NCBI GenBank assembly: GCA_009781515.1
Contig: WQXY01000019.1
Span: 1-44,645 of the forward strand
Length of the DNA: 44,645 bases
Source: Oscillospiraceae bacterium
Lineage (GTDB): Bacteria > Bacillota > Clostridia > Oscillospirales > Oscillospiraceae
Direction of reading: 5' to 3'
Under the pieces are notes generated by a model. That model was not told where the DNA came from, did no database searches, and saw only the letters and a program-made list of their open reading frames with translations. Position 1 is the first letter of the stretch. Every line of letters starts with the position of its first letter. Below, piece after piece: positions 10,124-44,645 of the stretch. The position numbers were made by a program, and so were the translations under genes.

Positions 10124-10175
10124 GCTTATCCCACCCTCTTATATATTAGTTCTTTTATACTTTTAGTCTCCATAC

Positions 10176-10204
10176 ATTCTACATTAACGGCATATCTGTG
10201 TCAA
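10176..10204 (-). promoter_or_regulatory. Promoter of the serC operon
   Basis: On the minus strand a perfect TTGACA (10199-10204) is followed after exactly 17 bp by TAGAAT (10176-10181). The -35 box overlaps the stop codon of mtaB, so the serC operon has its own start of transcription just as mtaB ends. The leader to the serC ATG would be about 45 bases. Confidence 0.8.
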
Positions 10205-11487
10205 ACGATTTTTCCTATTAAAATGCCGTCTTTTATGCTTGAAATCAACACATTTTTCAGAACGTTTTTGTCTATCTTGTTGGGTACTGTATTTTCCACG
10301 GCGATTTTTGTGTAATTATCTCCGTGACCAATGCTCAGATTATCCTTTTGTTCCTCAAAAAGAACAGGTACGATTTTGCCGATTTGTGACTGCAAAAATT
10401 CGTTTTTCATTTGCTCTGCTATTTGTATTGCCTCTTTTGTTCTTTTTTGTTTTTCGCTTTTTTCAATTTGATTTGGCATTTTTTCGGCGGCTGTCCCGGG
10501 GCGCTTGGAATACGGGAAAATATGCATGTCGGAAAATGCGGCTTTTTTTATGAAGCCGAGCGTTTGTTTGTACTGCCCTTGTGTTTCACCGGGGAAGCCA
10601 ACGATGAGGTCTGCTGTTATGCCGCAGTTTGGAAATTTCTTTCTCAGCTCTTCTACTGCTTGCAGTACATCGGCTGTTTTGTACTTGCGTCCCATTCTTT
10701 TTAGTGTTTCATCACAACCGCTTTGCAACGAAATATGGAAGTGATTGCAAAGGTTTGGCACTTTTGTCAGTTCATCGATGAAGTCTGGTGACAGCGCTCG
10801 CGGGTCAAGCGAACCTAATCGCAATCTTGTGTCCGCAGCTGCAGTGCTTATGGTTTGTATTGCGGTAACGAGGGGTACAGTAACGAGGTGTACGGAGAGT
10901 GTCAAATCCTTCCCCCATGAGGAAATCTCAATCCCCGTTATGATAATTTCCTTGTAGCCCAATTCCTGAAGCTTTTTTGCTTTGTTTGCTATTTCATCAA
11001 GAGGCATGGAGCGTGAGACTCCGCGTGCATACGGAATTATGCAGTATGTACAGTGGTTATCACAGCCGTCTTGTATTTTGAGAAGTGCTCTCGTGCGGGC
11101 TGTGGGTGGGGGTGATGTTGTTTGTTTTCGCGGGCGCCCGAGGGCGGTCGCCCCTACCAGTTCAATAACCTTAGTTGCAAACTGTTCTCTGTCGTTTGTG
11201 CCGCCGATTAAATCAGCACCTATCTGTGTCGCCGCTTTATCATCAAGCTTTGAAAAACAGCCGCAAACAGCAATAAGTGCTGTCGGTTCAAGTTTTTTCA
11301 TTTTATTTATTGCCTGTTTTGATTTTCTCACACTCTCTGCTGTCACGGCGCAGGTATTTATGATACAAACATCACAGCCATCGCCGAGCCTCACCTGCTC
11401 ATATCCGTTTTCACAAAGCAAAGTCGCAATTATCCCCGTATCATATTGGTTGGCTTTGCAGCCGAGAGTGGTCACAGCAAATCGCAT
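10201..11487 (-). CDS. mtaB: tRNA (t6A37) C2-methylthiotransferase MtaB
   Basis: The 428-residue radical SAM enzyme adds a methylthio group to N6-threonylcarbamoyl-adenosine 37 of tRNAs reading ANN codons. The N-terminal UPF0004 domain has TLGCKANQYD and the cluster cysteines in INTCAVTAESVRKSKQ and VCGCFSK. The radical SAM motif CDNHCTYCIIPYARG lies near residue 140, followed by the HFHISLQSGCDETLKRMGRKY and ADLIVGFPGE blocks, and a C-terminal TRAM-like region. MtaB rather than MiaB or RimO is indicated by the TTLGCKANQYD start. It is read from the ATG at 11487 with CGGAG upstream, divergent from the cysteine desulfurase gene. Confidence 0.93.
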   Translation of the reverse strand: MRFAVTTLGCKANQYDTGIIATLLCENGYEQVRLGDGCDVCIINTCAVTAESVRKSKQAINKMKKLEPTALIAVCGCFSKLDDKAATQIGADLIGGTNDREQFATKVIELVGATALGRPRKQTTSPPPTARTRALLKIQDGCDNHCTYCIIPYARGVSRSMPLDEIANKAKKLQELGYKEIIITGIEISSWGKDLTLSVHLVTVPLVTAIQTISTAAADTRLRLGSLDPRALSPDFIDELTKVPNLCNHFHISLQSGCDETLKRMGRKYKTADVLQAVEELRKKFPNCGITADLIVGFPGETQGQYKQTLGFIKKAAFSDMHIFPYSKRPGTAAEKMPNQIEKSEKQKRTKEAIQIAEQMKNEFLQSQIGKIVPVLFEEQKDNLSIGHGDNYTKIAVENTVPNKIDKNVLKNVLISSIKDGILIGKIV

Positions 11488-30702: not shown

Positions 30703-30733
30703 GCTTCTAATAGATTAAAGGGAGGTGCCCGCT

Positions 30734-32227
30734 ATGAAACGCAAAGACCCTATATACCCAATTGAGCCGTGGAATGTGACCGAAACAACTTTTAATATCG
30801 CCGATAATTACCGAAATGAAACCATTTTTTCACTTTCAAACGGTTACATAGGCACACGCGGTACCTTTGAGGAAGATTACCCGTTTGAAACAGGCCAAGG
30901 GCTTGAGGGCAATTATATCGGCGGCTTCTATGAAAGCGAGCCTATCCGCTATGGCGAGTGGAACTATGGCTTCCCTGAACATAGCCAGACGCTGCTCAAT
31001 CTGCCGAACCTAAAAACGACAAGGATTTATTTTGGAGATGAACTGCTTGACATGCGCAGCGGACAGTTAGAGGATTACTGCCGTACACTCGACCTAAAAA
31101 GCGGGGTGCTAAGACGCTTTTTGACTTGGGTATCACCGGGCGGCAAGCGAGTGCGCATCGAAACTTCCCGCTTTGTCTCTTTTGACATGAAGAATATTTT
31201 GGCCTTGCGCATCAAGGTAATACCTCTTGATTTTGACTGTGAAATTCGTTTTCAGTCTGTACTTAATGCCGATGTGGAAAATCATACACGGGAAACTAAT
31301 CCGCTGATTGATTACGGTCCGTTTGAGCGAAGACTTACCCCTGATGCGATTGGCGCTGCAGGCGACATGCTTTTTTATGTCGGACATACCACAAACAGTG
31401 GTCTTAAAATGGCTTGCGGAGGTCTGCATAGATTAATAGGTACAGTAACGGATAGAAACTATGAAACCGACAACTTGCACAGCTCCATTGAATATTCCAC
31501 GCGTGGCACTGTTACCATGGATAAATTTATTGCATATGCGTCCGACCTTGATATGCCGGAGGGCAAGCTACCCGACTTCATACAGGAGTGTCTATTTGAT
31601 GCCGTACGAGATGGCTTTGAAGGACTTGAACAAAAGCAGAGGGCTTATATGCAGACGTTTTGGGACAGTGCCGATATAGAAATCGACGGCGATGACCGTT
31701 TGCAACAGGGACTGCGTTTTAATCTGTTTCATCTCATGCAGGCGGCAGGACGCGACGGTCGCACAGGTATGGGCGCCAAGGGATTGACAGGCGAGGGTTA
31801 TGAGGGACATTATTTTTGGGATACGGAAATCTATGCACTCCCTGTGCTGATACACACTTCCCCTGATTTGGCAAAAAATCTTCTCGATTACAGATACAAG
31901 ACCTTGGATGCAGCGAGGGCGAGGGCTCGTCAGCTCGGTCACACCCAAGGTGCTCTCTATCCATGGCGTACTATAAATGGCGAAGAATGTTCGACATATG
32001 TTCCGCTCGGAACGGCGCAGTATCACATAAACGCCGATATCGCCTATGCTTTCACACAATACGTCAACGTTACAGGCGACATGGATTATCTCAAAGCAAA
32101 AGCTGCCGAGGTTATATGCGAAACCGCCCGTGTATGGGCGGATGTCGGTTGTTTTTCAGAAGCAAGAGGTGGCAAATACTGTATTTGCTGTGTTACCGGA
32201 CCGGATGAGTATTCCGCCTCACTCTGA
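30734..32227 (+). pseudogene. GH65 family disaccharide phosphorylase, 5' part, cut by IS21 insertion
   Basis: The 497 residues belong to glycoside hydrolase family 65 (maltose, trehalose, kojibiose or nigerose phosphorylase group): IEPWNVTETTFNIADNYRNETIFSLSNGYIGTRG at the start, TRIYFGDELLDMRSG, and the (alpha/alpha)6 barrel motifs GLTGEGYEGHYFWDTEIYALP and LGHTQGALYPWRTINGEE. The frame runs into VTGPDEYSA and then stops at a TGA formed by the first three bases of the inserted element. GPDEY carries the general acid Glu in this family, so this half is without its C-terminal domain. The ATG at 30734 has GGAGG upstream. The specificity cannot be read from the sequence alone. Confidence 0.88.
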
Positions 32228-32285
32228 GCCACCAGTCCGATAAATGAGAGCCACCGTTCCGACGGCACAGAGCCACTATTGCACC
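32225..32285. repeat. Left end of the IS21 element with internal GAGCCAC repeats
   Basis: TGAGCCAC stands at the very end and GAGCCAC recurs twice within the first 60 bp, at about 20-bp intervals. These are the presumed transposase binding sites. Confidence 0.7.
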
Positions 32286-32376
32286 TTTAAAAACTAATAT
32301 ATCTAACCGGCACCATCTCCTTTATACTATGATGTGCGCCAATCGGCGTAAATCATAAATGAAGGGGGTCAAAGAA

Positions 32377-33915
32377 ATGACCAAATACAGAGAAATCCTG
32401 AGGTTAAAGAGTCTGGATTTCAGCGAGCGGAACATAGCGATTAGCTGTGTAGTGTCCCGCAACACCGTGGCGAAGGTAGTCAAGAAAGCTGCTGAATACA
32501 ATTTAGTGTGGCCACTATCGGATGACCTAACAGACGAAGCGTTGGGTAAGATATTGTTTCCCAAGGAGCAGTCGGCAACGCCTGACTATTCCTACATCCG
32601 CAAGGAACTGTTGCGCAATGGTGTAACGAAGAAACTACTGTGGATTGAATACTGCGAGGAATGCCGCATGAATGGTGAAGATCCTCTGATGTATTCACAG
32701 TTCTGCCATTACATACAGCAAGATGAACAAAAACGACGTGCAAGCATGCATATACCGCGCAAACCCGGCGAACAAATTGAGGTCGATTGGGCTGGAGATT
32801 CGGCATACATCATCGACCCGGATACCGGAGAGACCACTGACGTTCGTATCTTCGTAGGTGTTATGACGTATAGCCAATACACTTATGTGGAAGCGTTCAT
32901 AAATGAGCAGCAGAAGGCTTGGTTAACAGCTCATATCAATATGTACAATTATTTCGGTGGTGTCGCTAAAATACTGGTATCTGACAACTGTGCAACAGCG
33001 GTTAATATCAAGAGCAAAAACTGGTATACGCCTGACTTGAACAAGAGCTATTACGCTTTAGCCGAGCATTACGGCACTGCCATCATTCCGGCGAGAGTCC
33101 GTAAACCAAAGGATAAACCCAATGTGGAAGGCTCGGTCAATCTGGCTTCAATGTGGATAATCGCCGCTTTGCGTAACGAACAATTTTTCTCCCTATCGGA
33201 GCTTAACGCTGCCATCATGGATAAGCTTAAAACGCTTAACTCCAACGAATTTCAAAAGAAAGAAGGCAGCAGGCTCAGCGTGTTTCTTGGGGAAGAAAAA
33301 CCGTTACTGGCCGCATTGCCTGCTACCCGTTTTGAACTGGCAGATTGGCAAAAACCTACCGTTCAGTTCAACTATCACGTCGCAGTTGACAAGATGTACT
33401 ACTCCGTGCCGTTTCATTATATCAGAAACGAAGTTGATGTGCGAGTAACAGAAACAACTATCGAGATTTTTTATCAACAAATCCGAATTGCATCTCACAG
33501 GAGGCTGTACGGGCGTCCCGGTCAGTATTCGACCAAAGAAGAGCATATGCCGGAGGAACACCAGAAGTATCTAGAGTGGAACGGAGACAGGTTTCGTAAG
33601 TGGGCTGAGAAAATTGGTGCTAACACACATATTGTTGTAGACGGCATTCTTACATCCGGTAGAGTTGAACAGCAGTCATACAGAAGCTGTATGGGTTTAC
33701 TGAAACTGACTGAAAAATATTCACCGGAAAAGATAGAAGAAGCTTGCAGAAAAGCGCTTACATTTTCACATTCTCCAAGTTACAAGAGCGTTAAAAACAT
33801 TCTGGTCACTATGAAGAAGGATATGCCGGATACTAAATCGGAAGAAATTCAAAAAAGCAATCAACATGGTATCACAAGGGGTGCCGGTTATTATGGAGGT
33901 GCCCGCCATGATTAA
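32377..33915 (+). CDS. istA: IS21 family transposase IstA
   Basis: The 512-residue transposase has an N-terminal helix-turn-helix (EILRLKSLDFSERNIAISCVVSRNTVAKVVKKA) and an integrase-type catalytic core: the first Asp in EQIEVDWAGD, the second in KILVSDNCATAV, and the Glu in KPNVEGSVNLA, i.e. a DDE triad. The C-terminal part has YYSVPFHYIRNEVDVRVTETTIEIFY, typical of IstA. The ATG at 32377 has AGGGGG eight bases upstream, better than the ATG at 32359. Its end overlaps istB by eight bases. All parts look intact, so the element may still move. Confidence 0.95.
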   Translation: MTKYREILRLKSLDFSERNIAISCVVSRNTVAKVVKKAAEYNLVWPLSDDLTDEALGKILFPKEQSATPDYSYIRKELLRNGVTKKLLWIEYCEECRMNGEDPLMYSQFCHYIQQDEQKRRASMHIPRKPGEQIEVDWAGDSAYIIDPDTGETTDVRIFVGVMTYSQYTYVEAFINEQQKAWLTAHINMYNYFGGVAKILVSDNCATAVNIKSKNWYTPDLNKSYYALAEHYGTAIIPARVRKPKDKPNVEGSVNLASMWIIAALRNEQFFSLSELNAAIMDKLKTLNSNEFQKKEGSRLSVFLGEEKPLLAALPATRFELADWQKPTVQFNYHVAVDKMYYSVPFHYIRNEVDVRVTETTIEIFYQQIRIASHRRLYGRPGQYSTKEEHMPEEHQKYLEWNGDRFRKWAEKIGANTHIVVDGILTSGRVEQQSYRSCMGLLKLTEKYSPEKIEEACRKALTFSHSPSYKSVKNILVTMKKDMPDTKSEEIQKSNQHGITRGAGYYGGARHD

Positions 33916-34684
33916 TCAAAGTACTATCAATAAACTGGTTGAAATGCGGCTTACACCTATGGCTGATGCATTTCGCATACAAATGGACGACCCCGCAATG
34001 AAAGGCATATCGTTCGAAGATCGCTTTGGAATGCTTGTGGACGTTGAGTACACCAGCAGGAAGAACAATCGCTTAAAAAGGCTTATTCGCAACTCAGACC
34101 TTGAGCAATCTGATGCTTGCATCGCAGGTATTGATTACCAGTCAGGAAGAAAACTCAATAAAGCTCTCATCTATAGGCTTGCAACGTGCGAATATATCGC
34201 AGAATTCAGGAACATTTTCATCACTGGCGCTACAGGCAGTGGTAAGACGTATATGGCATGTGCGTTTGGCATGGAAGCATGCAAGCAGTATATCACTGTC
34301 AGATATGTCAGACTCCCGGATTTACTTATGGATTTAGACGCAGCTCGGGACAACAATAATTTCTTAAAGGTGTTGAGTAAATACACAAAACCTACTCTGT
34401 TGATAATTGATGAGTGGCTATTACTTAAACTGAATGAGTCTGAATTGAAGAATCTCTTTGAATTGATTCATAAACGTAGGAAACGGACGTCAACTATTTT
34501 CTGTTCTCAATTCAAGGAAACGGGTTGGTATGAACGGCTCGGTGGCGGTGAAACACCTCTTGCTGAAGCAATCATAGATCGAATCATTTATGATGCATAC
34601 AAAATCAATATTGTGAGTACTGATCCAAAGAAAGATTTATCAATGAGAGAAGTGTATGGTCTTGATAAGAATCTAACAATGTAA
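33908..34684 (+). CDS. istB: IS21 family helper ATPase IstB
   Basis: The 258-residue AAA+ ATPase guides target choice and stimulates IstA. It has Walker A GATGSGKTYMACAFG (about residue 100), Walker B TLLIIDEWLLL, and sensor-type STIFCSQFKETGWYERLGG, plus the conserved end AEAIIDRIIYDAYKINI. GGAGG precedes the ATG at 33908, which overlaps the end of istA (ATGATTAA). In-frame upstream starts lie within istA and are less likely. Confidence 0.95.
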   Translation: MINQSTINKLVEMRLTPMADAFRIQMDDPAMKGISFEDRFGMLVDVEYTSRKNNRLKRLIRNSDLEQSDACIAGIDYQSGRKLNKALIYRLATCEYIAEFRNIFITGATGSGKTYMACAFGMEACKQYITVRYVRLPDLLMDLDAARDNNNFLKVLSKYTKPTLLIIDEWLLLKLNESELKNLFELIHKRRKRTSTIFCSQFKETGWYERLGGGETPLAEAIIDRIIYDAYKINIVSTDPKKDLSMREVYGLDKNLTM

Positions 34685-34686
34685 TA

Positions 34687-34725
34687 TGTACAATGGTGGC
34701 TCTGTCTGTCCGGATTAGTGGCTCA
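34687..34725. repeat. Right end of the IS21 element
   Basis: Read inward on the minus strand it shows TGAGCCACTAATCCG, then ACAGAGCCACCATTG, matching the left-end repeats. The outermost A of TCA at 34725 marks the edge. Confidence 0.7.
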
Positions 34726-34766
34726 CGCCACATCGGACAGGCGGCTCCGCCGCACAAGAATAATCA

Positions 34767-35624
34767 CCGGACGAGTACACCGCATTTGTAGACAATAATT
34801 TCTACACAAACCTTATGGCGCGCGAAAATCTGACAGATGCGGTAACGGCAGTGCAGTGGCTCACCGAGAATGACAGCGACGCGTATAATAAATTATGCAA
34901 AAAAATCGGTCTGAGCTCCGAAGAGCCGGACCTCTGGCAGGATATCGCCGACAACATCTATCTGCCCTACGACGAAACACGTGCAGTCTATTTGCCTGAC
35001 GACGGTTTTCTTTTGCGTAAGCCGTGGGAGAAGCTAAAAATCCCGCCCGAAAAGCGGCATTTACTCTACGAAAACTACCACCCTCTCTTTATCTGGCGAC
35101 AGCGAATGGCGAAGCAGGCAGATACGCTTCTTGCTATGTTTTTGCACCGCGACCGCTTCAGCCGCTACGAATTAGAGCGAAACTACGACTTCTATCAGGG
35201 ATTTACTCTGCATCATTCTTCCCTGTCCACCTGTATATTTGGTATCGTGGCAAGCCTAATTGGACACGACAACGAAGCCTACCGATATTTTAATGAAAGT
35301 GCGCGAATGGACTTAGATGACCACCATAACAATGTGCACGCCGGTATCCATGCGGCAAACATGGCGGGTACATGGCAGGCTCTCGTATTCGGCTTTGCGG
35401 GTCTGCGTGCAGACACCGGCAGCCTTAAGCTGTCACCAAAACTTCCCGAACCGTGGAATGCCTACCGTTTCCGTATAGTTTACAGAGGAAGCTTGCTTGA
35501 AATTTTGACCGAAAAAAACGGCTGCGAGGTATTGCTCCTCGACGGAAAGGCTCTTGATGTCATTTTGTATGGCAAAAACTATCATTTAGAAAAGGGTGAA
35601 AACATATGCGCAAGTATGAAGTGA
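34767..35624 (+). pseudogene. GH65 family disaccharide phosphorylase, 3' part
   Basis: The frame resumes after the element with P-D-E-Y-T-A-F-V-D-N-N-F-Y-T-N-L and continues 285 residues to the normal end of a GH65 protein: DGFLLRKPWEKLKIPPEKRHLLYENYHPL, RQRMAKQADTLLAMFLHRD, the phosphate-binding LHHSSLSTCIFGIVASLIG, the GIHAANMAGTWQALVFGFAGLR motif, and the C-terminal beta domain. Together with the 5' part this gives about 775 residues, the usual family length. The PDEY[S/T]A stretch is present on both sides of the element but with different codons. The ATG at 34815 is internal; translation of this half alone is unlikely to give an active enzyme. Confidence 0.88.
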
Positions 35625-36487
35625 TTTTTTTCGACTGGGACGGAACGGCAGTATTGTCGCGTAATACTCCTGCAGACGTGGCAGCACGGTTCATGGCACC
35701 GCTTCTTGCTTCCGGTGTGAAGCTCGTTATCCTCAGCGGCACCAGTTTCAAAAACATTGACGGCGGTAAACTTCCCGAGCGTTTTGAGCGCGAGCATCTC
35801 GCCAATCTGTATTTCGGGCTTGACCGCGGGGCAAATAATTACGGGTTCGACAAACTCGGAAACATCATCTCTATCCCCGGTGTTCTGGTCGGTCAAAATG
35901 AGATAAAAAAGCTGCACCAAGTATGCTTCGATTTCCATATGAAACTGCTTGAAAACTACGCACTGAACACGGATATAATTTTTTGCCGTGATAATTACTG
36001 TAAAATCGACATCGGCTCGAATATATGCAGGGGCAGCAAGTTCTTTTTTACCGGTAATGAACTGGAGCTTATTAATGTCGGCTTGGTTTCGCACGGATAT
36101 GCCGAGGGAATTAGCGGACTTATAACCTTAGCCGAAGCATTGGGACGTGAGCATGGCTTGACACTGCGCGCTACGACTGATGCAAAGTACATTGAGTTAG
36201 GCTTTGGCACGAAATCAGACAATGTAGATGCCATTTTGTCCCATTTGGAAGCTGCTGCCGGTCGCAGACTCGACTGCTGCTTTTGGGGAGATGAGTTTTT
36301 GGAAATGGACAGCGGGGTCTACGGCAGCGATGCGTTTATGATAACGGAAAAAACAAAAGCATTTGGCTTCTTTGATGTGTCTGAAGTGGAGGGTAAACGC
36401 CCGAAACAGGTTCAAAGGGTAGGCGGCGGCGTAGAACGTTTTTTGTCATTTTTGAATGATCAGGCGTGCAAAACACCCCGAAACTAA
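35606..36487 (+). CDS. HAD superfamily phosphatase (HAD-IIB like)
   Basis: The 293-residue protein starts with motif I FFDWDGTAV, motif II is VILSGTSFKN, and motif IV/III lies in CCFWGDEFLEMDSGVYGSDAFMI. The cap region and length fit HAD-IIB sugar phosphatases rather than beta-phosphoglucomutase. It overlaps the end of the GH65 gene by 19 bases and has AAGGGTGA upstream of the ATG at 35606. A role in handling the sugar phosphate released by the phosphorylase is inferred from the operon. Its expression may be reduced by polarity of the IS element. Confidence 0.82.
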   Translation: MRKYEVIFFDWDGTAVLSRNTPADVAARFMAPLLASGVKLVILSGTSFKNIDGGKLPERFEREHLANLYFGLDRGANNYGFDKLGNIISIPGVLVGQNEIKKLHQVCFDFHMKLLENYALNTDIIFCRDNYCKIDIGSNICRGSKFFFTGNELELINVGLVSHGYAEGISGLITLAEALGREHGLTLRATTDAKYIELGFGTKSDNVDAILSHLEAAAGRRLDCCFWGDEFLEMDSGVYGSDAFMITEKTKAFGFFDVSEVEGKRPKQVQRVGGGVERFLSFLNDQACKTPRN

Positions 36488-36788: not shown

Positions 36789-39206
36789 TTATTTGCTAAT
36801 AATAAATGCTCTATGAGTATATTTATAGATACAACCATTCCCTCGTCTGATTATCCATTCAACTTTACTTCGTAAACGTTGAACTAAGTCTGTACCAATT
36901 TCCTTGCCAATATTTAATGTCATTACAATGCGATGTTCTTTGTAAAACTCATTTTGCTTAGCATATACAAGATTTTTAATTATCTCACTTAGCGACTGAA
37001 TTATGTCATTATTTACTCTGTATAATGTTTTATCAATAAAATCAAAGCCCCACCGATTAATTGTTCTATCGGCTCTAGCAGAATATGAAAAAATATTATT
37101 TACATTTCTGAAGCGAATAGATTTGTACACACGATCTAAACATCCATAATGTGTTAATGATTCACAAACTCTTAAAATTTCATCAGAAAACTTATTATAT
37201 GACAAATTAATAGTAGGAAAAAAGGTTATTTCATAGTTCATTAACTCTGAAAGAATAAATTTTACAAAGTTGTGAAATTGCCCATCTCCCTTGATTTTAA
37301 CATCCACATTCGTTTTTAGAACTTCTCTTACATAAAATATTAAATGTTTATAAATTAGTAAAATTATTAATTCAAGAGGATAGATGCTCTTTTCTGCTTT
37401 TTCATTTATGCTTTTATAATAAACATCTTCAATAGCATGTGTGATATCTTGTCGTAAACGGTATTCACGATTTTCTTCTTCTGTATGAGTTTTGGATTTA
37501 CTAGCCTCATTACTCTTTTTTATGTTCAATTTTTCTATTATTTGTTCTAAGTCTTGAGTGATGTTAAAAATATCTTTATCATCAATTAATTTTGTTAATT
37601 TCTCTTCATTAATATCACCAATCATTCTTGTTATTTCATTTTTCGCCTCATCTATTGGAATTATTTGGTGTTCTTGCGTTTTTTGTTTAGTACTATACTC
37701 ATAATCGATTTCACTTTCTGTGTATATACTTATTTGCAAAGACACTATTCCTGCTTCATATAATGCATGAGGTAAACTGCTTGTGTTACTATCTAGAATC
37801 CCTCGTTCATCATTTTTCCCTGTAGAACCTATAGCTGTAATTTCCATTTTTGATGGTTTATTTAACATAAAGTCACAGATAACTTGTGAATTCTCATCAA
37901 TTGCTCCTTTTTCTAGTAATTTTTTTGTTAAGGATTCTTCAAACTCTCGTGTAAGGTTTTTATGTTTGAATAAGTAATGAGCTGGGAATCTAGCCGTTGG
38001 CGACAAGGTTTGCACCATCATAATATTTGTTGAATACCTTGTATTCATAACACCATCAACAATTCTATTAAGAACTAATTCGTTATTTAAAGGAGTTATT
38101 GGTTCGATTTCTGAAGTTTTCATTTGTTCAATTAAATCTGAATCCCTCATAACAGTGTGTGCTTTATGTATCCACTCAATACATTTAAACCAACCTTCTT
38201 CTTTTAATATTTCCAAATGATAAGCTATTTTTGAAATTAATAGTTGTTCATGTAATCGAGTAGATTTATTTTGATGTACTCGCCTTGTTAACATATATCT
38301 TTGAAAAAGTAAATTTGATATTTCCATAATATAATTTGTATTTACTATTGTTTTAAAAATAAACTTATTGGAATTTTGATTAGTCGAATCATTAATAGGA
38401 AATGCACAATAATTTAGTGCCAGAGCATATCTTGAAAGATCAATTACACTATTTATTCCACATCGATTGAAGTCACGATTAATGTAGTCGATTCTGTCTG
38501 CATCAAAATCACCACTTATTAGTGCTTTAAACATATCAAGATATGGTGGTATATCAACATTTGTATGACCATCAATCAAATATGTTAACCAATCTTTATT
38601 AATTGCGTAATCAGCCAGAATGCTGGTTAAATCTTCATTAGCATAAATTTGATATATTGTATATTTTTCATGCCCATATTTCTTAAAGGGGTTAAATTTA
38701 GTAAAATACTTTGATAAGTTCTCTTCATGAACACTGACATCTGGAATATATTCAAAATATTCAGGGTATTTTTTTGAAACTTCCTCAAATAGATGAGACA
38801 TGGGAGCATGACCAATATCATGTAATAACGCAGCAATTCGCACATGTTTAATAACATCAATATAAGCTGAACCAGAAATTCTTCCCTCATTAATAGAAAA
38901 ATCGCATGCTTCAAGTGCAGTCTTTGATTCTTCATCATAAACAGCTATTGTTTTCGCAAGGTAATCTGCAACATATAAGCACCCCAATGAATGTTCATAT
39001 CTTGTATGTTGTGCACCAGCATGCCCAATATAAGCCAAGCTCATTTGTTTAATGTTCTTCAGTCTTAAAAATATTGGAGTATTAATTAACTTATACTCAC
39101 AATTTGTTAATTGAATGTCTCCCCAAATAGAATCGTAAACGGTTTTTGGTTTGTATTTCTGCATACCAGTATCATACCCCTTTTTATTTTTTACTATAAT
39201 TTTCAT
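36789..39206 (-). CDS. Large SAMHD1/dGTPase-like HD-domain protein
   Basis: This 805-residue protein has an HD phosphohydrolase core in its first 300 residues: VYDSIWGDIQLTNCEYKLINTPIFLRLKNIKQ, HTRYEHSLG (His72), ALLHDIGHAPMSHLFE (His129, Asp130) and DFDADRIDYINRD (about 233-245). The layout is that of the dGTPase/SAMHD1-like group. The other 500 residues are helical, with a Lys/Glu-rich central part, and show no family I know. The start may be ATG at 39206 or 39164; the latter has AAGGGG upstream and begins just before the conserved part. It lies 131 bp after kwaB on the same strand. Bacterial dNTPases are known to block phage growth by draining nucleotides, so a defence role is plausible but inferred. 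Confidence 0.8.
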   Translation of the reverse strand: MKIIVKNKKGYDTGMQKYKPKTVYDSIWGDIQLTNCEYKLINTPIFLRLKNIKQMSLAYIGHAGAQHTRYEHSLGCLYVADYLAKTIAVYDEESKTALEACDFSINEGRISGSAYIDVIKHVRIAALLHDIGHAPMSHLFEEVSKKYPEYFEYIPDVSVHEENLSKYFTKFNPFKKYGHEKYTIYQIYANEDLTSILADYAINKDWLTYLIDGHTNVDIPPYLDMFKALISGDFDADRIDYINRDFNRCGINSVIDLSRYALALNYCAFPINDSTNQNSNKFIFKTIVNTNYIMEISNLLFQRYMLTRRVHQNKSTRLHEQLLISKIAYHLEILKEEGWFKCIEWIHKAHTVMRDSDLIEQMKTSEIEPITPLNNELVLNRIVDGVMNTRYSTNIMMVQTLSPTARFPAHYLFKHKNLTREFEESLTKKLLEKGAIDENSQVICDFMLNKPSKMEITAIGSTGKNDERGILDSNTSSLPHALYEAGIVSLQISIYTESEIDYEYSTKQKTQEHQIIPIDEAKNEITRMIGDINEEKLTKLIDDKDIFNITQDLEQIIEKLNIKKSNEASKSKTHTEEENREYRLRQDITHAIEDVYYKSINEKAEKSIYPLELIILLIYKHLIFYVREVLKTNVDVKIKGDGQFHNFVKFILSELMNYEITFFPTINLSYNKFSDEILRVCESLTHYGCLDRVYKSIRFRNVNNIFSYSARADRTINRWGFDFIDKTLYRVNNDIIQSLSEIIKNLVYAKQNEFYKEHRIVMTLNIGKEIGTDLVQRLRSKVEWIIRRGNGCIYKYTHRAFIISK

Positions 39207-39337
39207 TTAGTCTATATAAACTGTAAACTGCATAATTAATATGATCACTTTTAGGAATATATTTTCATAATTTTATGATTGTCATTATTACTTTACGGAA
39301 GCTATATGTCTACAGCTATGTTTATGTCTATCAGACA

Positions 39338-40276
39338 TTACGCATCAGGAAGTATCTTCTTAGCCGGGCTGTCATATTCTCTTTGGGATAATTCTGAACG
39401 CAAAAAATCATCATTTAGCATCTTTAATATGTTCGCAACATCCTTTTGAGATGTGACAGTAATCTTTCCGTCTTCAATGGAAATATTATCATATCTAGGT
39501 ATGGTTGATAGTCTACTAACAACAGTATCAATAGACATAGTTAAAATAGGTGAATGCTTAATTTTTAAAAGTTTTTTAGCATTTGTTAACTTATCTTTAG
39601 AAATAAAATCACTAAATTTTGTAATATCATTGATTAATCCGGTATCTTGAATTGCTGTGATAGTGTCTTGTGCCTTATCCCGAATATACTTCTCTAGTCC
39701 GTAGTTCATTTCTAAGAATTCAATTTTTGTTGGGCATATTATATCTTTGGTAATAAGTGCATCTACACGGCTTTCAATGTTAAACAACTTATTCGTGTCT
39801 ATATGCTCAAAAATACTATCACTTGATAACAATGCAAATAAACCTTTTGCTCTTCTTGATATTGAAGTTGGGTAAACATGTTGATATGCCCAGACTATTT
39901 TTGTATCAATAGAAAAGCAAAATGCAAATCCAATTAAGTTTGCTTTATCATTTTCTGTGAAACTTTCACTAGTATTATCAATGGAAAACAAGAATTCAAA
40001 CGGGTTGTATTGTTCACTCACTTCAATTAAATATAAAGCATTGCTATTATCATCCATGTTATCAGCAGTTTCATATATAACATCTTCACTAAGGTAATTT
40101 GATTTTATTACATCAATAATTACATTTTCTATTTCATTACGGAAGCTATCTTGTATATTAAAGCGTTTTAATTGCGTAACTTCACCATTTCTGACATTAC
40201 AATATACAGAGAATCCACACCCTTTTTCTCCAAGTAACACATCTCTAACATATTCACGAAATTTATCAGGTTTCAT
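39338..40276 (-). CDS. kwaB: Kiwa anti-phage system protein KwaB (DUF4868)
   Basis: The 312-residue cytoplasmic protein matches the DUF4868 family, the KwaB subunit of Kiwa. The signs are the central NPFEFLFSIDNTSESFTENDKANLIGFAFCF, then YQHVYPTSIS, RVDALITKDIICPTKIEFLEMNYGLEKYIRDKA, and the C-terminal SQREYDSPAKKILPDA. KwaB binds DNA and acts with the membrane protein KwaA to stop phage replication. The ATG at 40276 has GGAG eight bases upstream; the GTG at 40285 lies within that site. It overlaps the end of kwaA by 11 bases. The family is recognised by eye and not confirmed by search. Confidence 0.85.
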   Translation of the reverse strand: MKPDKFREYVRDVLLGEKGCGFSVYCNVRNGEVTQLKRFNIQDSFRNEIENVIIDVIKSNYLSEDVIYETADNMDDNSNALYLIEVSEQYNPFEFLFSIDNTSESFTENDKANLIGFAFCFSIDTKIVWAYQHVYPTSISRRAKGLFALLSSDSIFEHIDTNKLFNIESRVDALITKDIICPTKIEFLEMNYGLEKYIRDKAQDTITAIQDTGLINDITKFSDFISKDKLTNAKKLLKIKHSPILTMSIDTVVSRLSTIPRYDNISIEDGKITVTSQKDVANILKMLNDDFLRSELSQREYDSPAKKILPDA

Positions 40277-40865
40277 TCTTAACACTCCTATTTTTTATTA
40301 ATTTAGCGAATACTACATCCCCATCAATTTCTCTGTATTCGATTATTGACTCGTTACTAATAATATCGGTTGTCACCGCGAAAATCTGCCCATCTTTATA
40401 TGGATTATTATTGAATGTAATTATATAAACATGATATCCCATAAGTGTTAAAATCGGATTAGAATAAAATAAGTTTGTCTTCATTAATAACAGAAAAATA
40501 ATAGTGAAAATAACAGTAAATGCAATTGCATTTTGCCATTTATCCAAATCTCCAACTAATAACGGTAAAATCATTGACGTAAAGAATGTCAACCCTGCTT
40601 CTTTTTCTTCGCTAATAATTTTGATAGAATACCCACTTTCTTTAGCAAACGATGTATTAAATTTGAAATAAAAATAAAAGAGAATAGAAACAAAGCACCA
40701 TAAAAAACATATAGTTAATAACAAAATTATTAGTATATTGCATTTAACAAACTGACATAATGTGAATATCTGTCCCTCTGATGTTTGAGTTATAAAGTTG
40801 AAGTTAAGTATTGTTGTAAGCAAGCAAAGCGGAGAAAGTGATAATACTGTTAATTTGGCTTTCAA
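40266..40865 (-). CDS. kwaA: Kiwa anti-phage system membrane protein KwaA
   Basis: The 199-residue protein has four membrane segments (about residues 5-25, 44-68, 90-108 and 112-130) and a small C-terminal cytoplasmic domain. Between segments 2 and 3 is SEEKEAGLTFFTSMILPLL, and after segment 4 comes KTNLFYSNPILTLMGYHVYII, patterns typical of KwaA. In Kiwa this protein is the membrane sensor of infection. Translation starts at TTG 40865, six bases after a perfect GGAGG. It begins 36 bp after the ABC ATPase stop, with no terminator between, so it may share that transcript. KwaB follows with overlap. Confidence 0.85.
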   Translation of the reverse strand: MKAKLTVLSLSPLCLLTTILNFNFITQTSEGQIFTLCQFVKCNILIILLLTICFLWCFVSILFYFYFKFNTSFAKESGYSIKIISEEKEAGLTFFTSMILPLLVGDLDKWQNAIAFTVIFTIIFLLLMKTNLFYSNPILTLMGYHVYIITFNNNPYKDGQIFAVTTDIISNESIIEYREIDGDVVFAKLIKNRSVKNET

Positions 40866-40901
40866 AGAAATCCTCCAATAAATGAGTAAATATGTATCGA
40901 G

Positions 40902-41567
40902 CTAGTTTATGATCCTTCCGTCGAGCATTTCTATTTTTCGCTTGCACCGGTCTGCGACATCTTTTTCGTGACTCACTATCACGACTGTTATACCGGTTTC
41001 ATTAAGCTTTTCTAATATCTGCATAACAGCTTCAGTATTTTTTGTATCAAGCGAACCGGTGGGTTCATCTGCAAAAAGATACCTCGGTTTTGTTACGATA
41101 GCACGAGCAATTGCTACGCGTTGTTTTTCACCACCGGATAATGTATTTGCACTCTGTTTTATGTTTGCTACCATGTCTACCTGTTCTAAAGCTTCATATA
41201 CGCGCTTATTACGTTCTTTCCTATTCATCTTATGTAAGAGCAAAGGAAACATTACATTGTCAAATACAGAATAATCATCAATTAACATAAAGTCTTGCAG
41301 TACGATTGATACATCATTATTGCGTATAGCCGCAAGCTTAAAGTCGCTCAATTTAGATAGCTCTTTATTATCTAAAGTCACACTACCTTCATATGCTTTA
41401 TCAAGGCAAGCTAAGATGTGAAGAAGTGTTGATTTACCAGAACCAGAAACACCTGTAATTGCAAGCATCTCACCAGAATGAATTTCTATGTCAACACTAT
41501 TCAAAGCCTTGAACCCTTTCTTATTATCAGAGTAATATGTCTTTGTTAAATTAGTTATTTTTATCAA
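40902..41567 (-). CDS. ABC transporter ATP-binding protein (MacB/LolD type)
   Basis: The 221-residue ATPase has Walker A GVSGSGKST, the signature LSGGEKQRVAIARAIV, Walker B LFADEPTGSLD and the switch His in VIVSHEKDVADRC. It belongs to the group working with FtsX/MacB-type permeases, two of which are encoded directly upstream. It starts with TTG at 41567, and that TTGA overlaps the stop of the second permease. The three genes form one transporter for export or membrane extraction, perhaps of the secreted protein or peptide encoded at the head of the operon, or for immunity to it. Confidence 0.93.
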   Translation of the reverse strand: MIKITNLTKTYYSDNKKGFKALNSVDIEIHSGEMLAITGVSGSGKSTLLHILACLDKAYEGSVTLDNKELSKLSDFKLAAIRNNDVSIVLQDFMLIDDYSVFDNVMFPLLLHKMNRKERNKRVYEALEQVDMVANIKQSANTLSGGEKQRVAIARAIVTKPRYLFADEPTGSLDTKNTEAVMQILEKLNETGITVVIVSHEKDVADRCKRKIEMLDGRIIN

Positions 41568-42697
41568 TAGAACTCTCTCCTTATAATTTCAATAAGTTGT
41601 TGTTTTTTTAAAATATTAAGCGGAATAAATACTGTAAATATTACTGTCAATAAAAAAATGAGTGGCATTACAAAGCTGTTCATTTTGATTAACATCGACG
41701 AACTGTGAAGGAGAGGAATATTACTATTTATTAGTAAAAAGTATATTATAATTGCTAACAGACTTGAATATATTGAGATTATCATTAAATAAAAAACCAT
41801 TATTTTGGCAATGTCAGATTTGCCAAACCCTATCATCATAAGAGTTGCAAATTTCTTCATATTTCTGATTGCAGCAAGAGTCGTGCAACCAATCAAACCT
41901 GATATGGATACTGCAAGTAATAATATTACAAATGGTAAAAAGAACAGCACACGAGAATTCCTATCTTCTATACCGGATTCGTATATTTCATTGAAGCTAC
42001 GAAAATATCCAAAATTTCTTAGATTCGATATAGTTTCTTGATCATTAGTTAGTATTAAACTGCTCATTGTTATTTTCTCATAATCTGAACCTATATGGTA
42101 AATTGCTGCCTCTCTATCTACTATTAATCTTGGTTTACTATCACTTTGTACAATATCCGATGATGTTATTCCTGTCCCACCTACGTTGAGGTCTATCGAC
42201 AAATTAGTACTTTGTATTCCCACGATTTTAATTTTTACGCTTTTGTTATAATCAAAACGTGAAGAAACTTCAATTATGTCATTTAGTCCTAATCCAAAAA
42301 CACTTCTCGTAAGAACTGCTGGTAAGTAATCAGCACTTTTTTCAACTTCACTAAGCCATTTCCCTTGATTTATATTAGGATGAAAGTAACTAAAAAATTC
42401 ATTATCAAATGCAAGAATGTCAATGTCAAATAAAAACAAAGAAGCACTTATAACATCGTAATTGCCTTCTATTTCATCTAAAACATGATTTCCTGTGAAC
42501 TCAAAATAGTCGGAAGAAAATATACCACCATCTATATCTGATAAACCTTTAAAAACCTGTGCTTTTTCATTTGCTGCATTATATTGCGAAATCATTATAA
42601 AACATATACATAGAGCTGCAGAATACTGTATCATTAAAACAAAATTTGTAAAAAGTTTATTGTTAAATATATTGAAAGCGAACTTTATGTGTTTCAT
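41564..42697 (-). CDS. FtsX/MacB-like ABC transporter permease, second subunit
   Basis: The 377-residue protein has one N-terminal membrane segment (residues 18-38), an extracellular region of about 200 residues, and three C-terminal segments (about 250-275, 300-325 and 340-362), the FtsX/MacB layout. ATLAAIRNMKKFATLMMIGFGKSDIAKIM between the first two C-terminal segments resembles the coupling motif of this group. It overlaps its neighbours on both sides by four bases. Sequence similarity to the first subunit is low, so they probably form a heterodimer. Confidence 0.8.
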   Translation of the reverse strand: MKHIKFAFNIFNNKLFTNFVLMIQYSAALCICFIMISQYNAANEKAQVFKGLSDIDGGIFSSDYFEFTGNHVLDEIEGNYDVISASLFLFDIDILAFDNEFFSYFHPNINQGKWLSEVEKSADYLPAVLTRSVFGLGLNDIIEVSSRFDYNKSVKIKIVGIQSTNLSIDLNVGGTGITSSDIVQSDSKPRLIVDREAAIYHIGSDYEKITMSSLILTNDQETISNLRNFGYFRSFNEIYESGIEDRNSRVLFFLPFVILLLAVSISGLIGCTTLAAIRNMKKFATLMMIGFGKSDIAKIMVFYLMIISIYSSLLAIIIYFLLINSNIPLLHSSSMLIKMNSFVMPLIFLLTVIFTVFIPLNILKKQQLIEIIRREFY

Positions 42698-43731
42698 CTA
42701 TTATCTCCCTTAATCATATGAGTTAAGGTCTTTCGAATGGTTGACGAAAAAATGATCATGAAAAGCACTAAATAAACAGTGAATACTATTATATAATCTT
42801 GTAATGCGAGTGAGTACTCACGATTACTAACGGTAATAAACGAAACAATTGAAGACATATTGAAGTGTGTAATTGCAAAACACACAGCAAACATACCAAA
42901 AAGTATTACAATATTCTCTATCAATATGCTAATTATGCTACGCAACCTATGAAAGCCACAAATACGCATAATCTTAATATACTTATCTCTTGTTTCTAAC
43001 ACATATTTATAGAGATAAGCTGCGTTAAGCAAAGATATCGCAAAAACAGCAATGATAATAATATACTCTATAATAACATCTGCTGATTGCGTAAGCACAT
43101 TTGGTGGCTCAACAACAGCTCCTATGAAGTTTTCCATTACACTATTAGTTATGTAATCAATAGCAAAAATATCAGGGATAGTATTTGTGTAGAAAATCAT
43201 CTTGTTTGGTTTAATTTCATTAACAATATCAATCACAGATGCAATATCAACGATACTATGGAACCAAGTTTTTCCAACAACAATATAGTTTCTATAAAAA
43301 AATTCTATTTCCGACCCTATCGGAGTATACCCAAACATATCATCATGTAAAATTGATAAAACAATTTCATTCTTTTCATTTATGCTACGTCCATTAGATA
43401 ATTCACTATAATTCTCGTTCGATATAACATCAACTTGCAAATTTAAACTGTCGTTCATTAACGAAAGCCCATCTATTAAACTTTCATTTTCTAAGATAAA
43501 AGCATCAATATCATTAATGATTTTTTTAATATCAGTATTAAAAAAATCAACAGAAAACATACGAAGACTGGTGAAAACGTTTTTTGCATAATCTACATTA
43601 GCACGGAAAATAGAAAACACATATAAAGTGGCTACTAAAGATATTATCTGAACTGCAACATATATTGAAAAAAGCAGCTTGTGTTTTTTTGCAAATAGCA
43701 ATATATTTTTATATATAAGCAGCAATTGCAC
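42694..43731 (-). CDS. FtsX/MacB-like ABC transporter permease, first subunit
   Basis: The 345-residue protein shows the same layout as its neighbour: a membrane segment near residues 17-40, an extracellular domain, and three C-terminal segments (about 222-245, 268-290 and 310-330). YVLETRDKYIKIMRICGFHRLRSIISILIENI fits the coupling helix. Similar permease pairs are found with bacteriocin-type peptides in Bacillota. It starts with GTG at 43731, ten bases after AAAGGAAAGGG. A strong hairpin at 43784-43825 separates it from the secreted-protein gene. Confidence 0.78.
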   Translation of the reverse strand: MQLLLIYKNILLFAKKHKLLFSIYVAVQIISLVATLYVFSIFRANVDYAKNVFTSLRMFSVDFFNTDIKKIINDIDAFILENESLIDGLSLMNDSLNLQVDVISNENYSELSNGRSINEKNEIVLSILHDDMFGYTPIGSEIEFFYRNYIVVGKTWFHSIVDIASVIDIVNEIKPNKMIFYTNTIPDIFAIDYITNSVMENFIGAVVEPPNVLTQSADVIIEYIIIIAVFAISLLNAAYLYKYVLETRDKYIKIMRICGFHRLRSIISILIENIVILFGMFAVCFAITHFNMSSIVSFITVSNREYSLALQDYIIVFTVYLVLFMIIFSSTIRKTLTHMIKGDNR

Positions 43732-43783
43732 TAAAATACTACACCCTTTCCTTTATATTTCACTTGTTATAACTCGCATAATC

Positions 43784-43825
43784 ACATCACACCAACTACA
43801 TATTATTGCGTAGTTGGTGTGATGT
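43784..43825. repeat. Perfect 16-bp stem between the secreted-protein gene and the ABC genes
   Basis: ACATCACACCAACTAC (43784-43799) pairs perfectly with 43810-43825, with a 10-base loop. It begins nine bases after the secreted-protein stop codon. No T-run follows in the minus direction, so it is more likely an mRNA end-stabilising or processing stem, or a leaky attenuator, than a full terminator. Confidence 0.7.
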
Positions 43826-43834
43826 AAAAAATGT

Positions 43835-44272
43835 TTATTTGCTACCTGTAATTGTTGCAGTACCTATAATATTTGTATGAGTTGAGTTTGATGTTACTCT
43901 TACTCTATGTAAAGTGCTTGTTGTTTCAACCCATAAAATACCCGTGACTACTGACGGTTCAAAATTATATGTTGTTTTCGTTTTTGTTGCATTATTCCAA
44001 CTAGAATATAAAGTGCAAAAATTTACTCGTGATGAATCTTCAACATCTGTAGTTATTGAATCAGGAGATGTGGCACCTCCTTTGTTAAATGAACCTCGTG
44101 CAGTGAGCTCCCATGTATTTGGTTGATTGATACGCAAAGTTTTTGAAGTGCTACTGCCAGTTAATTTGTACGAGGTTGAAGATGTGCTTGTTGCCGAAAC
44201 TATAAACGAACATGCGACGACAAGCAATGTAACAATAGTTATAAGAGCAACCAATTTCTTTAGTTTTAACAT
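43835..44272 (-). CDS. Small secreted Ser/Thr-rich beta protein of unknown function
   Basis: The 145-residue protein has a clear signal peptide (residues 1-27, KLKKLVALITIVTLLVVACSFIVSA). The mature 118 residues are rich in Ser, Thr and Asn, contain a single Cys (V-N-F-C-T-L-Y), and appear all-beta (KTLRINQPNTWELTARGSF, GILWVETTSTLHRVRVTS). No family is recognised. GGAGG precedes the ATG at 44272. Standing between an AgrD-like peptide and an ABC exporter it could be a bacteriocin-like or adhesive effector, but that is inferred from position. The Cys in the signal region (V-A-C-S) is not a good lipobox. Confidence 0.75.
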   Translation of the reverse strand: MLKLKKLVALITIVTLLVVACSFIVSATSTSSTSYKLTGSSTSKTLRINQPNTWELTARGSFNKGGATSPDSITTDVEDSSRVNFCTLYSSWNNATKTKTTYNFEPSVVTGILWVETTSTLHRVRVTSNSTHTNIIGTATITGSK

Positions 44273-44340
44273 TTTGTCCTCCTTTAATTAAATATAAATT
44301 CTTGATTAATCATCAATTGTTTTTCTATCACATTAATTCA

Positions 44341-44478
44341 TTACTTTTTTAGCTTCATAACAGAATCAGGTATCTTAGGTTGGTGGAAAACAAAGTAACA
44401 GAAATTCGCTGAATATTCTGCTGTCATAAGCGCAAGCGATGCAAACAAAAAACCAAATCTTCCAAGTATCTTCTTCAT
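44341..44478 (-). CDS. agrD: AgrD-like cyclic lactone autoinducer peptide precursor
   Basis: A 45-residue precursor, too short for most gene callers, with a perfect GGAGGG before the ATG at 44478. The N-terminal amphipathic leader KKILGRFGFLFASLALMTA is followed by N-F-C-Y-F-V-F-H-Q-P-K-I-P and a basic end MKLKK. This is the layout of clostridial AgrD peptides: a Cys at the first position of a five-residue ring (C27-Y-F-V-F31), then x-Q-P-x-x-P and a charged tail that the protease AgrB removes. The product would be a thiolactone ring with a short N-terminal tail. No agrB is in the window; it may lie past the right edge or elsewhere. Confidence 0.82.
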   Translation of the reverse strand: MKKILGRFGFLFASLALMTAEYSANFCYFVFHQPKIPDSVMKLKK

Positions 44479-44524
44479 GTGTATCCCTCCTTAATAAATA
44501 ATTCGGTATGCTACCGTTGATAGT

Positions 44525-44555
44525 AGTATACCGCAGAAAAAATAAAAAATCTCAA
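44525..44555 (-). promoter_or_regulatory. agrD promoter with over-long spacer
   Basis: On the minus strand TTGAGA (44550-44555) and a perfect TATACT (44525-44530) are 19 bp apart. A spacer longer than 17 bp makes a weak promoter that needs an activator, as known for the agr P2 and P3 promoters of Staphylococcus. The direct repeats lie right beside the -35 box. Confidence 0.65.
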
Positions 44556-44559
44556 CAAT

Positions 44560-44622
44560 GTAATATATAGTAAGTTTTATGTAATATATAGTAAGTTTTA
44601 TGTAATAAATAGTATTTTTTGT
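44560..44622. repeat. Three 21-bp direct repeats, candidate LytTR (AgrA-type) binding sites
   Basis: GTAATATATAGTAAGTTTTAT occurs at 44560-44580 and exactly again at 44581-44601; a third, partly changed copy begins at 44602 (GTAATAAATAGTATTTTT). The 21-bp period equals two helical turns and equals the 9+12 spacing of AgrA direct repeats. The array ends four bases from the -35 box of the agrD promoter. Confidence 0.75.
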
Positions 44623-44645
44623 TAAATTGATTATTTCAAAATTAA

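Follow-up and report, generated by a model that had tools for sequence, protein, structure and literature searches.

A divergent Kiwa pair directly behind an agrD-led secreted-protein cassette in an Oscillospiraceae genome

We describe here eight genes on the minus strand (36789-44478) of contig WQXY01000019.1 from an Oscillospiraceae bacterium, whose 44,645 nucleotides are the whole stretch of DNA that we analysed (the window; contig G000:C19 of a 2.3-Mb, 57-contig assembly that is 90.4% complete), and in which the two genes of the Kiwa anti-phage system stand right behind a group of genes headed by agrD, which encodes a cyclic lactone autoinducer precursor. The reading that we favour, with a probability a little under one half (about 0.46), is that two modules lie here in tandem, an Agr/LytTR-like cassette of bacteriocin type and Kiwa as its opportunistic tail. 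The first module (agrD, a secreted protein, two FtsX-type permeases and an ATPase) would be a peptide-regulated cassette for a small secreted, probably antagonistic protein, in which a MacB/LolCDE-like complex most likely protects the producer or helps to release the product. Activation would come from a LytTR-family regulator, part of an Agr-type circuit, at direct repeats before agrD, and the presence of agrD within the same transcript would give positive feedback. The second module, kwaA and kwaB, would have landed 36 bp behind the ATPase gene and would use its read-through, damped by a stem-loop after the secreted-protein gene, so that more peptide signal would mean more KwaA and KwaB. The tail position of Kiwa would be opportunistic and outside any conserved system, and the last of the eight genes, for an HD-domain protein, would probably be separate.

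The order of these genes is agrD, secreted protein, permease 1, permease 2, ATPase, kwaA, kwaB and HD, and all eight open reading frames (ORFs) are confirmed on the one strand on which an earlier note, made from the letters alone, had placed them. From the first permease to kwaB that note counted gaps of 4, 4, 36 and -11 bp; the sizes stand, and the two 4-bp junctions (permease 1-permease 2 and permease 2-ATPase) are in fact overlaps, followed by 36 bp between ATPase and kwaA, an 11-bp overlap between kwaA and kwaB, and 131 bp before the HD gene. At the head, agrD and the secreted-protein gene are 68 bp apart, and 103 bp separate the latter from permease 1. Our scan of the minus strand agrees with the same note in finding no intrinsic terminator with a U-tract between agrD and kwaB, and it found no promoter-like site of at least 9/12 between 41610 and the start of kwaA. 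Read-through is plausible because of the 36-bp ATPase-kwaA gap and the lack of such a terminator in the scan; we put the chance of some read-through into Kiwa in this genome at about even, and that of a biological role for signal-linked Kiwa expression lower than this. The 103-bp junction holds a stem-loop (43784-43825, minus strand) of 16-19 pairs and -30.9 kcal/mol (z -4.9; none of 200 shuffles reached this stability), devoid of a U-tract and probably an attenuator or an element of mRNA processing or stability. We read it as a device giving more secreted protein than transporter, and it would also lower Kiwa expression from the agrD promoter. Rfam gave no match. The eight-gene stretch has about 30% GC, against 37-48% (mostly near 45%) over the remaining contig, and its genes have 20-35% GC at third codon positions, where the adjacent gene (35606-36487) has 52%. 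The set thus looks foreign, or at minimum distinct; transfer does not follow from low GC by itself, because the genome's own agr locus, on contig C14, is likewise GC-poor (34%).

Judged from their sequences, kwaA and kwaB are a real, complete but divergent Kiwa pair, for which protection against phage is predicted, and the earlier note's identification of Kiwa as KwaA plus KwaB (DUF4868) is borne out by curated models and solved chains alike. The kwaA gene (40266-40865, minus strand; 199 residues, TTG start, GGAGG upstream) passes the NF041622 cut-off with 105.2 bits against 100, and its product matches the solved KwaA chain 9o0i_G (E 8.1e-12), has three hydrophobic segments at the hydropathy threshold used and keeps the N-P-x-L and G-Y positions, with S-M in place of the usual T-Y before P101. 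The kwaB gene (39338-40276, minus strand) starts with ATG at 40276 in an ORF open from a GTG at 40285; KwaB scores 134.3 bits for PF16162 (DUF4868/KwaB) against 26.3, fits one PADLOC KwaB model (PDLC00230, 249 bits) and matches solved KwaB (9mrx/9o0i, E 7e-12). It falls under the stricter NCBI equivalog cut-off (NF041623, 134.8 against 200 bits), which we take as divergence because the match covers almost the whole model. A profile built from 18 KwaB sequences, that of the window included, found solved KwaB at E 6e-72, and D292, L295, S297, Y304 and K309 are invariant across the 18. The highest identity to any sequence in our trees is 25% for KwaB and 32% for KwaA, and in both trees the window proteins sit on long branches with uncertain placement (the KwaB tree was made without six entries, fragments or duplicates: L042, L056, L061, L062, L063 and L069; the KwaA tree without two, L042 and L062; L numbers are our labels for loci). 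The likeness to known Kiwa thus lies in adjacent, overlapping genes that both match curated models and solved Kiwa chains, and the difference in divergence and in the place behind an agrD-led cassette. A Kiwa pair from the Gram-positive Streptococcus thermophilus is reported, when expressed from a constitutive promoter, to cause a 4-5-log drop in plaquing for two lactococcal phages, and so, in the construct described there, to be active without any such cassette (PMC11514479).

The case for peptide control begins with agrD (44341-44478, minus strand; 45 residues), whose product passes its family cut-off (TIGR04223, 36 bits against 19) and has CYFVF, before HQPKIP, as its probable ring. Upstream, at 44553-44627, lie direct repeats with a 21-bp period (2.7 copies at 44558-44614) whose coding strand holds AAAACTTAC-N12-AAAACTTAC at 44570-44599, that is, two 9-bp boxes 12 bp apart. 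LytTR regulators are reported to recognise pairs of 9-bp repeats, usually with 12 bp between them and just upstream of the -35 element, at boxes that include ACCACTTAC, and this tabulated box is matched by AAAACTTAC at 7 of 9 positions (PMC6193735). A repeat of this quality (28/28, at any offset from 12 to 40) arose in 0 of 2000 first-order Markov samples, and the repeat unit with up to 3 mismatches occurs at four places in the genome, three in this array and one outside it. The window has one perfect ACTTAY-N15-ACTTAY site; with one mismatch allowed it has two, against 0.81 expected, and 22 of 100 shuffles reach two. L080, one of 13 further AgrD loci in the family, carries ACCACTTAC-N12-ACCACTTAC 59 bp before agrB; Markov samples of these 13 loci average 0.03 perfect sites, and 6 of 200 such samples have one or more. 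On these grounds the repeats before agrD look like an operator of LytTR (AgrA) type. A -10-like TATACT follows at 44525-44530 (minus strand), with no good -35 (GAGATT at 17 bp). It is overlapped by an imperfect palindrome, CGGTATaCTAC...GTAGcATACCG (44504-44533), which may be an operator or a hairpin of the 5' leader (z -3.7).

The remaining genes of the cassette are harder to name. The small secreted protein (43835-44272, minus strand; 145 residues with an N-terminal hydrophobic signal) matches no Pfam, NCBIfam or PADLOC family and is bacteriocin-like by position only; a match to it in a family genome (L021) proved by eye to be a frame across other genes. Permease 1 (42694-43731; 345 residues) and permease 2 (41564-42697; 377 residues), both on the minus strand, each have four hydrophobic segments arranged as one plus three, a MacB-type topology by hydropathy, and score 21.8 and 23.5 bits for PF02687, below the gathering score of 25.5. 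The ATPase (40902-41567, minus strand; 221 residues), an ABC_tran protein of the LolD/FtsE/MacB/lactococcin-972-ABC group, has a best LolD match of 227.2 bits (cut-off 307.75) and scores 209.3 bits for TIGR03608 (cut-off 254.85), reaching neither cut-off. Complexes of MacB/LolC type act by mechanical transmission. Since the secreted protein also has a signal of its own, by analogy with such complexes the transporter is more likely to serve immunity or release than export across the membrane, and with this topology the 'ABC exporter' of the earlier note becomes doubtful; the set resembles MacB/LolCDE-type complexes in its one-plus-three permeases and departs from them in an FtsX match below the gathering score and an ATPase below the curated LolD cut-off.

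ComE, the regulator of the best known likeness, streptococcin B (scbABC), is a LytTR regulator. In this system, of lactococcin 972 type, a small secreted protein is followed by predicted immunity and transporter genes, and control is by a peptide pheromone through ComE, for which the promoter has a site; what scbB and scbC do is, by the authors' own statement, unverified (PMC11796350). The window differs in having agrD in place of the competence peptide, a secreted protein with no lactococcin-972 family match in Pfam or NCBIfam, two half-size FtsX permeases, and an ATPase that stays below TIGR03608. Relatives of the cassette itself are scarce. Permease 2 has none in 84,980 species genomes or in viral contigs (searched with six peptide patterns) and none in plasmids (tblastn). 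It has matches in 18 of 200 family genomes, its own included, of which the other 17 are weak and lie in the C-terminal FtsX part (16 in ORFs of more than 800 residues, one in a 137-residue ORF), and at E 1e-6 in 4 of 391 genomes of the class, namely its own, one with a match in a 1088-residue ORF, and two with short permeases of which the match covers the greater part. These two, which with their neighbours fit the same topology within the limits of hydropathy, lie in loci L098 and L099. The L099 cassette has secreted protein, permease, permease and ATPase in the order of the window, and the L098 cassette has the same four gene types with the secreted gene last and the contig end just before permease 1. 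Neither locus shows Kiwa, or AgrD by the loose pattern used, and their secreted proteins do not match that of the window at E 0.01. In L099 a strong stem-loop (11107-11187; -25 kcal/mol, z -7.6) follows the secreted gene, a position that corresponds to that of the window stem-loop despite permease identities to the window of only 21-28%, and in L098, with its other gene order, no such stem precedes the secreted gene.

A good deal weighs against the tandem-module reading, and it is convenient to take it together, starting at the promoter. The distance from the last clear box to TATACT is 39 bp, compared with 32 bp in L080, so that the promoter may be elsewhere, and a 9/12 promoter-like site lies upstream of the repeats (44639-44611). 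With a -35 at 17-bp spacing, the 39 bp leave 16 bp between repeats and -35 where about 10 bp was looked for, for which reason we call the promoter LytTR-like only; the earlier note had seen an activator-type promoter there. Over all loci examined, perfect ACTTAY pairs are limited to six overlapping copies of the window site, L080 and L060, and that in L060 lies within kwaA and is surely chance, so single sites can be chance. The contig carries no agrB, agrC or agrA/LytTR gene. Its right end is 167 bp upstream of agrD, so that the head of the locus is out of view and the regulator either lies past that end or is missing, and a search of the assembly with its last 106 bp gave, apart from itself, only chance-like matches of up to 28 bp. 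The only agrB found in the assembly is on C14, in a locus (L025) of agrD, LytTR response regulator, GHKL kinase and agrB, and the operators there, two 21-bp-period pairs of the form CTCRYGTCA-N12-NTTGCGTCA, are unlike the window boxes in sequence. One could then hold that the repeats are just an AT-rich tandem repeat before an ordinary promoter and that agrD is a stray with no circuit: any perfect 21-bp repeat holds every 9-mer twice at 12-bp spacing, the -10 stands 7 bp further from the boxes than it does in L080, and no agr machinery is visible. We think this unlikely, since LytTR sites have this period, there is a match in the box core ACTTAC, the same box and spacing recur before agrB in L080, and outside the array the genome has one 3-mismatch match to the unit; it would in any case be compatible with a chance juxtaposition of cassette and Kiwa, to which we come below.

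The difference between window and C14 boxes suggests that the window belongs to a second, separate circuit. Control by the AgrA of C14 was considered and rejected, as no operator of C14 type precedes the window agrD; a search for such operators gave one 1-mismatch site, inside the HD gene, and 17 of 100 shuffles give as many. The C14 pairs (L025 6633-6839) lie in the intergenic region that the agr locus shares with a divergent gene for a 147-residue secreted protein and are mirror images, one facing agrD and the other the secreted gene; a like double pair arose in 2 of 2000 Markov samples. Agr-type sites in this genome thus seem positioned to switch on a small secreted protein as well; we saw no homology between that protein and the secreted protein of the window. 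Measured against Agr loci at large (agrB, agrD, agrC, agrA), the window shares an AgrD precursor over its cut-off and LytTR-like repeats upstream, and differs in a contig that lacks agrB, agrC and agrA and in an agrD that heads a cargo operon; by eye, the 13 other AgrD loci of the family have AgrB-, regulator- or kinase-like genes close by.

Two further points on the same side concern the secreted protein and the step into Kiwa. The protein has no relative by sequence and none in plasmids, so that its antagonism is guessed from context. The stem-loop behind its gene could end most transcripts before the transporter, and the best promoter-like site of the scan lies inside permease 2 (TTGACA-17-GATAAT, 11/12, 42429-42401, minus strand), with others of 9-10/12 in the same gene (41826, 41709 and 41638, minus strand), any of which could drive the ATPase, kwaA and kwaB without agrD. 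Promoter-like sites number 47 overall, compared with 51.1 in shuffles, and as the count is no higher than chance gives, the scan speaks neither for nor against transcription of ATPase-kwaAB from a start of its own. This brings us to the view that the genes are chance neighbours in a low-GC island, with kwaAB as defence cargo that has its own promoter in permease 2 or the ATPase gene and is unrelated to the peptide signal. It is a view that we hold to be quite possible, favoured as it is by the 11/12 site, by the roughly 30% GC of the island, and by the rarity and company of Kiwa elsewhere; what tells against it is that with a 36-bp gap, a good ribosome site, 4-bp overlaps upstream and no terminator found, some read-through would be hard to avoid.

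As to rarity, Kiwa was found in 1 of 200 genomes of the family (protein search), in 4 of 394 of the order (Pfam KwaB) and in 3 of 398 of the phylum (nearest PADLOC model), the window's own genome being counted each time. As to company, we compared 37 other Kiwa loci, 36 of them distinct (L042 and L072 are the same record): 29 from a KwaA alignment scan of species genomes, two on viral contigs and six from plasmids or sampled genomes, with little or none of the upstream side visible in those that are short or start near kwaA (L041, L043, L059, L061 and L069). None of the 37 has a homologue of the secreted protein, of either permease or of the HD protein (BLASTP, E <= 1e-3); in three an ABC ATPase matches, at a distance of 4 to 9 kb, and a loose regular expression, our sole search for AgrD there, gave one convincing match (L068), 9.7 kb from Kiwa. 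The agrD-ABC-Kiwa linkage of the earlier note is accordingly not seen in these loci, one of the outcomes that the note had named as refuting it, and a conserved multi-part system was rejected on this finding. In seven of the 37 a mechanically called ORF on the same strand ends less than 50 bp before kwaA, and these ORFs vary (HsdS in L035, HsdR in L063, TolC in L040, a membrane protein in L047, and others), which makes Kiwa commonly a tail on varying partners. Restriction or BREX genes surround Kiwa in L035 and L063 and, judged by annotation only and outside the 37, in L102 (Klebsiella) and L103 (Halobacterium).

One of these arrangements deserves particular attention. In Emticicia oligotrophica plasmids pEMTOL01 and pEMTOL02 (L100, 5618-12912; L101, 4396-10915), genes for a peptidase-domain ABC protein, HlyD, TolC, KwaA and KwaB follow one another, with a gap of 25 bp in front of kwaA, and small GG-leader genes lie nearby; this is a second, remote case of Kiwa ending a peptide-secretion operon. 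Since the five genes common to both plasmids are 92.6-98.3% identical between them (74% for one gene further up), we count the two copies as one event. It might be argued from these two remote cases of kwaAB last behind a secreted-peptide operon that the unit is selected, either because Kiwa guards the membrane during synthesis of a membrane-active product or because dense competing populations need both weapons. We regard this as very unlikely: besides the window there is one such arrangement in 37 loci, an excess that cannot be called significant, the Emticicia copies are one event, and by eye the nearest Flavobacterium loci (L067 and L071) have no such exporter in the stretch listed.

Several other Kiwa-like loci may be recorded here. 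In L045, L046, L051 and L053 (around 9850-10480; Wenyingzhuangia and Ochrovirga), KwaA homologues stand between like-sized neighbours with no KwaB found nearby, possibly as lone KwaA proteins with another role. KwaB-like genes also occur on small plasmids of 4.8-11.5 kb, mostly mobilizable, from E. coli (including Nissle), Salmonella and Dickeya. Two Clostridia metagenome-assembled genomes (MAGs) from deer and sheep rectum (L047, 9124-11397; L062, 9212-11406) have Kiwa behind a membrane protein of 231-234 residues with a similar N-terminus and, by eye, a recombinase-like gene further up; the L062 Kiwa genes are split in pieces. In another Clostridia MAG (L059, 729-4508, on a 5.6-kb contig) a small secreted protein gene lies about 370 bp upstream of kwaA, preceded, by eye, by sigma-factor-like and membrane-anchored genes. 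No relatives of the window KwaB were found in viral contigs, and none of the L047 KwaB in phages.

What would it mean if the tandem-module reading were right? Real read-through would furnish a natural case of an autoinducing-peptide gene and a phage-defence pair on a shared transcript, and a single small locus could then serve to test whether defence goes up in dense populations; it would also suggest that defence genes can acquire regulation simply by coming to lie downstream of a regulated operon. If read-through is not real, the locus warns that defence genes with the spacing of an operon may be there opportunistically. That cell density controls Kiwa, as the earlier note inferred, is plausible, with the cognate agrB, agrC and agrA not on the contig. 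A stronger claim, that Kiwa is an output arm of an Agr/LytTR-like circuit, co-transcribed with the signal gene and the gene of a competition protein, and that Emticicia is an independent case, seems to us unlikely; were it true, weapons against phages and against competitors would be raised together. That phage defence can be under density control has already been published, in that quorum sensing is reported to raise CBASS transcription in Vibrio cholerae (PMC10653837). The likeness is transcription of a phage defence that goes up at high density, and the difference is that quorum sensing acts there, as reported, on a separate defence operon (PMC10653837), whereas the window signal gene would share the transcript. 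Among the titles and abstract openings listed from the open-access literature, none described a Kiwa-Agr or Kiwa-bacteriocin operon.

The HD-domain protein (36789-39206, minus strand; 805 residues, SAMHD1-like in its N-terminal third) passes the PF01966 cut-off with 27.5 bits against 22. It may be independent, because two 10/12 promoter-like sites (39312-39256) lie in the kwaB-HD gap, and its gene is probably a separate transcription unit. The earlier note had counted it as part of the unit; it stands next to Kiwa in none of the 37 other loci, and a role as a Kiwa component was rejected for that reason. No relatives of it were found in viral contigs. Elsewhere in the window, on the plus strand, a glycoside hydrolase family 65 gene (30725-35624) is split into two parts (30725-32227 and 34815-35624), and between them lies an istA/istB pair of IS21 type (32359-34684).

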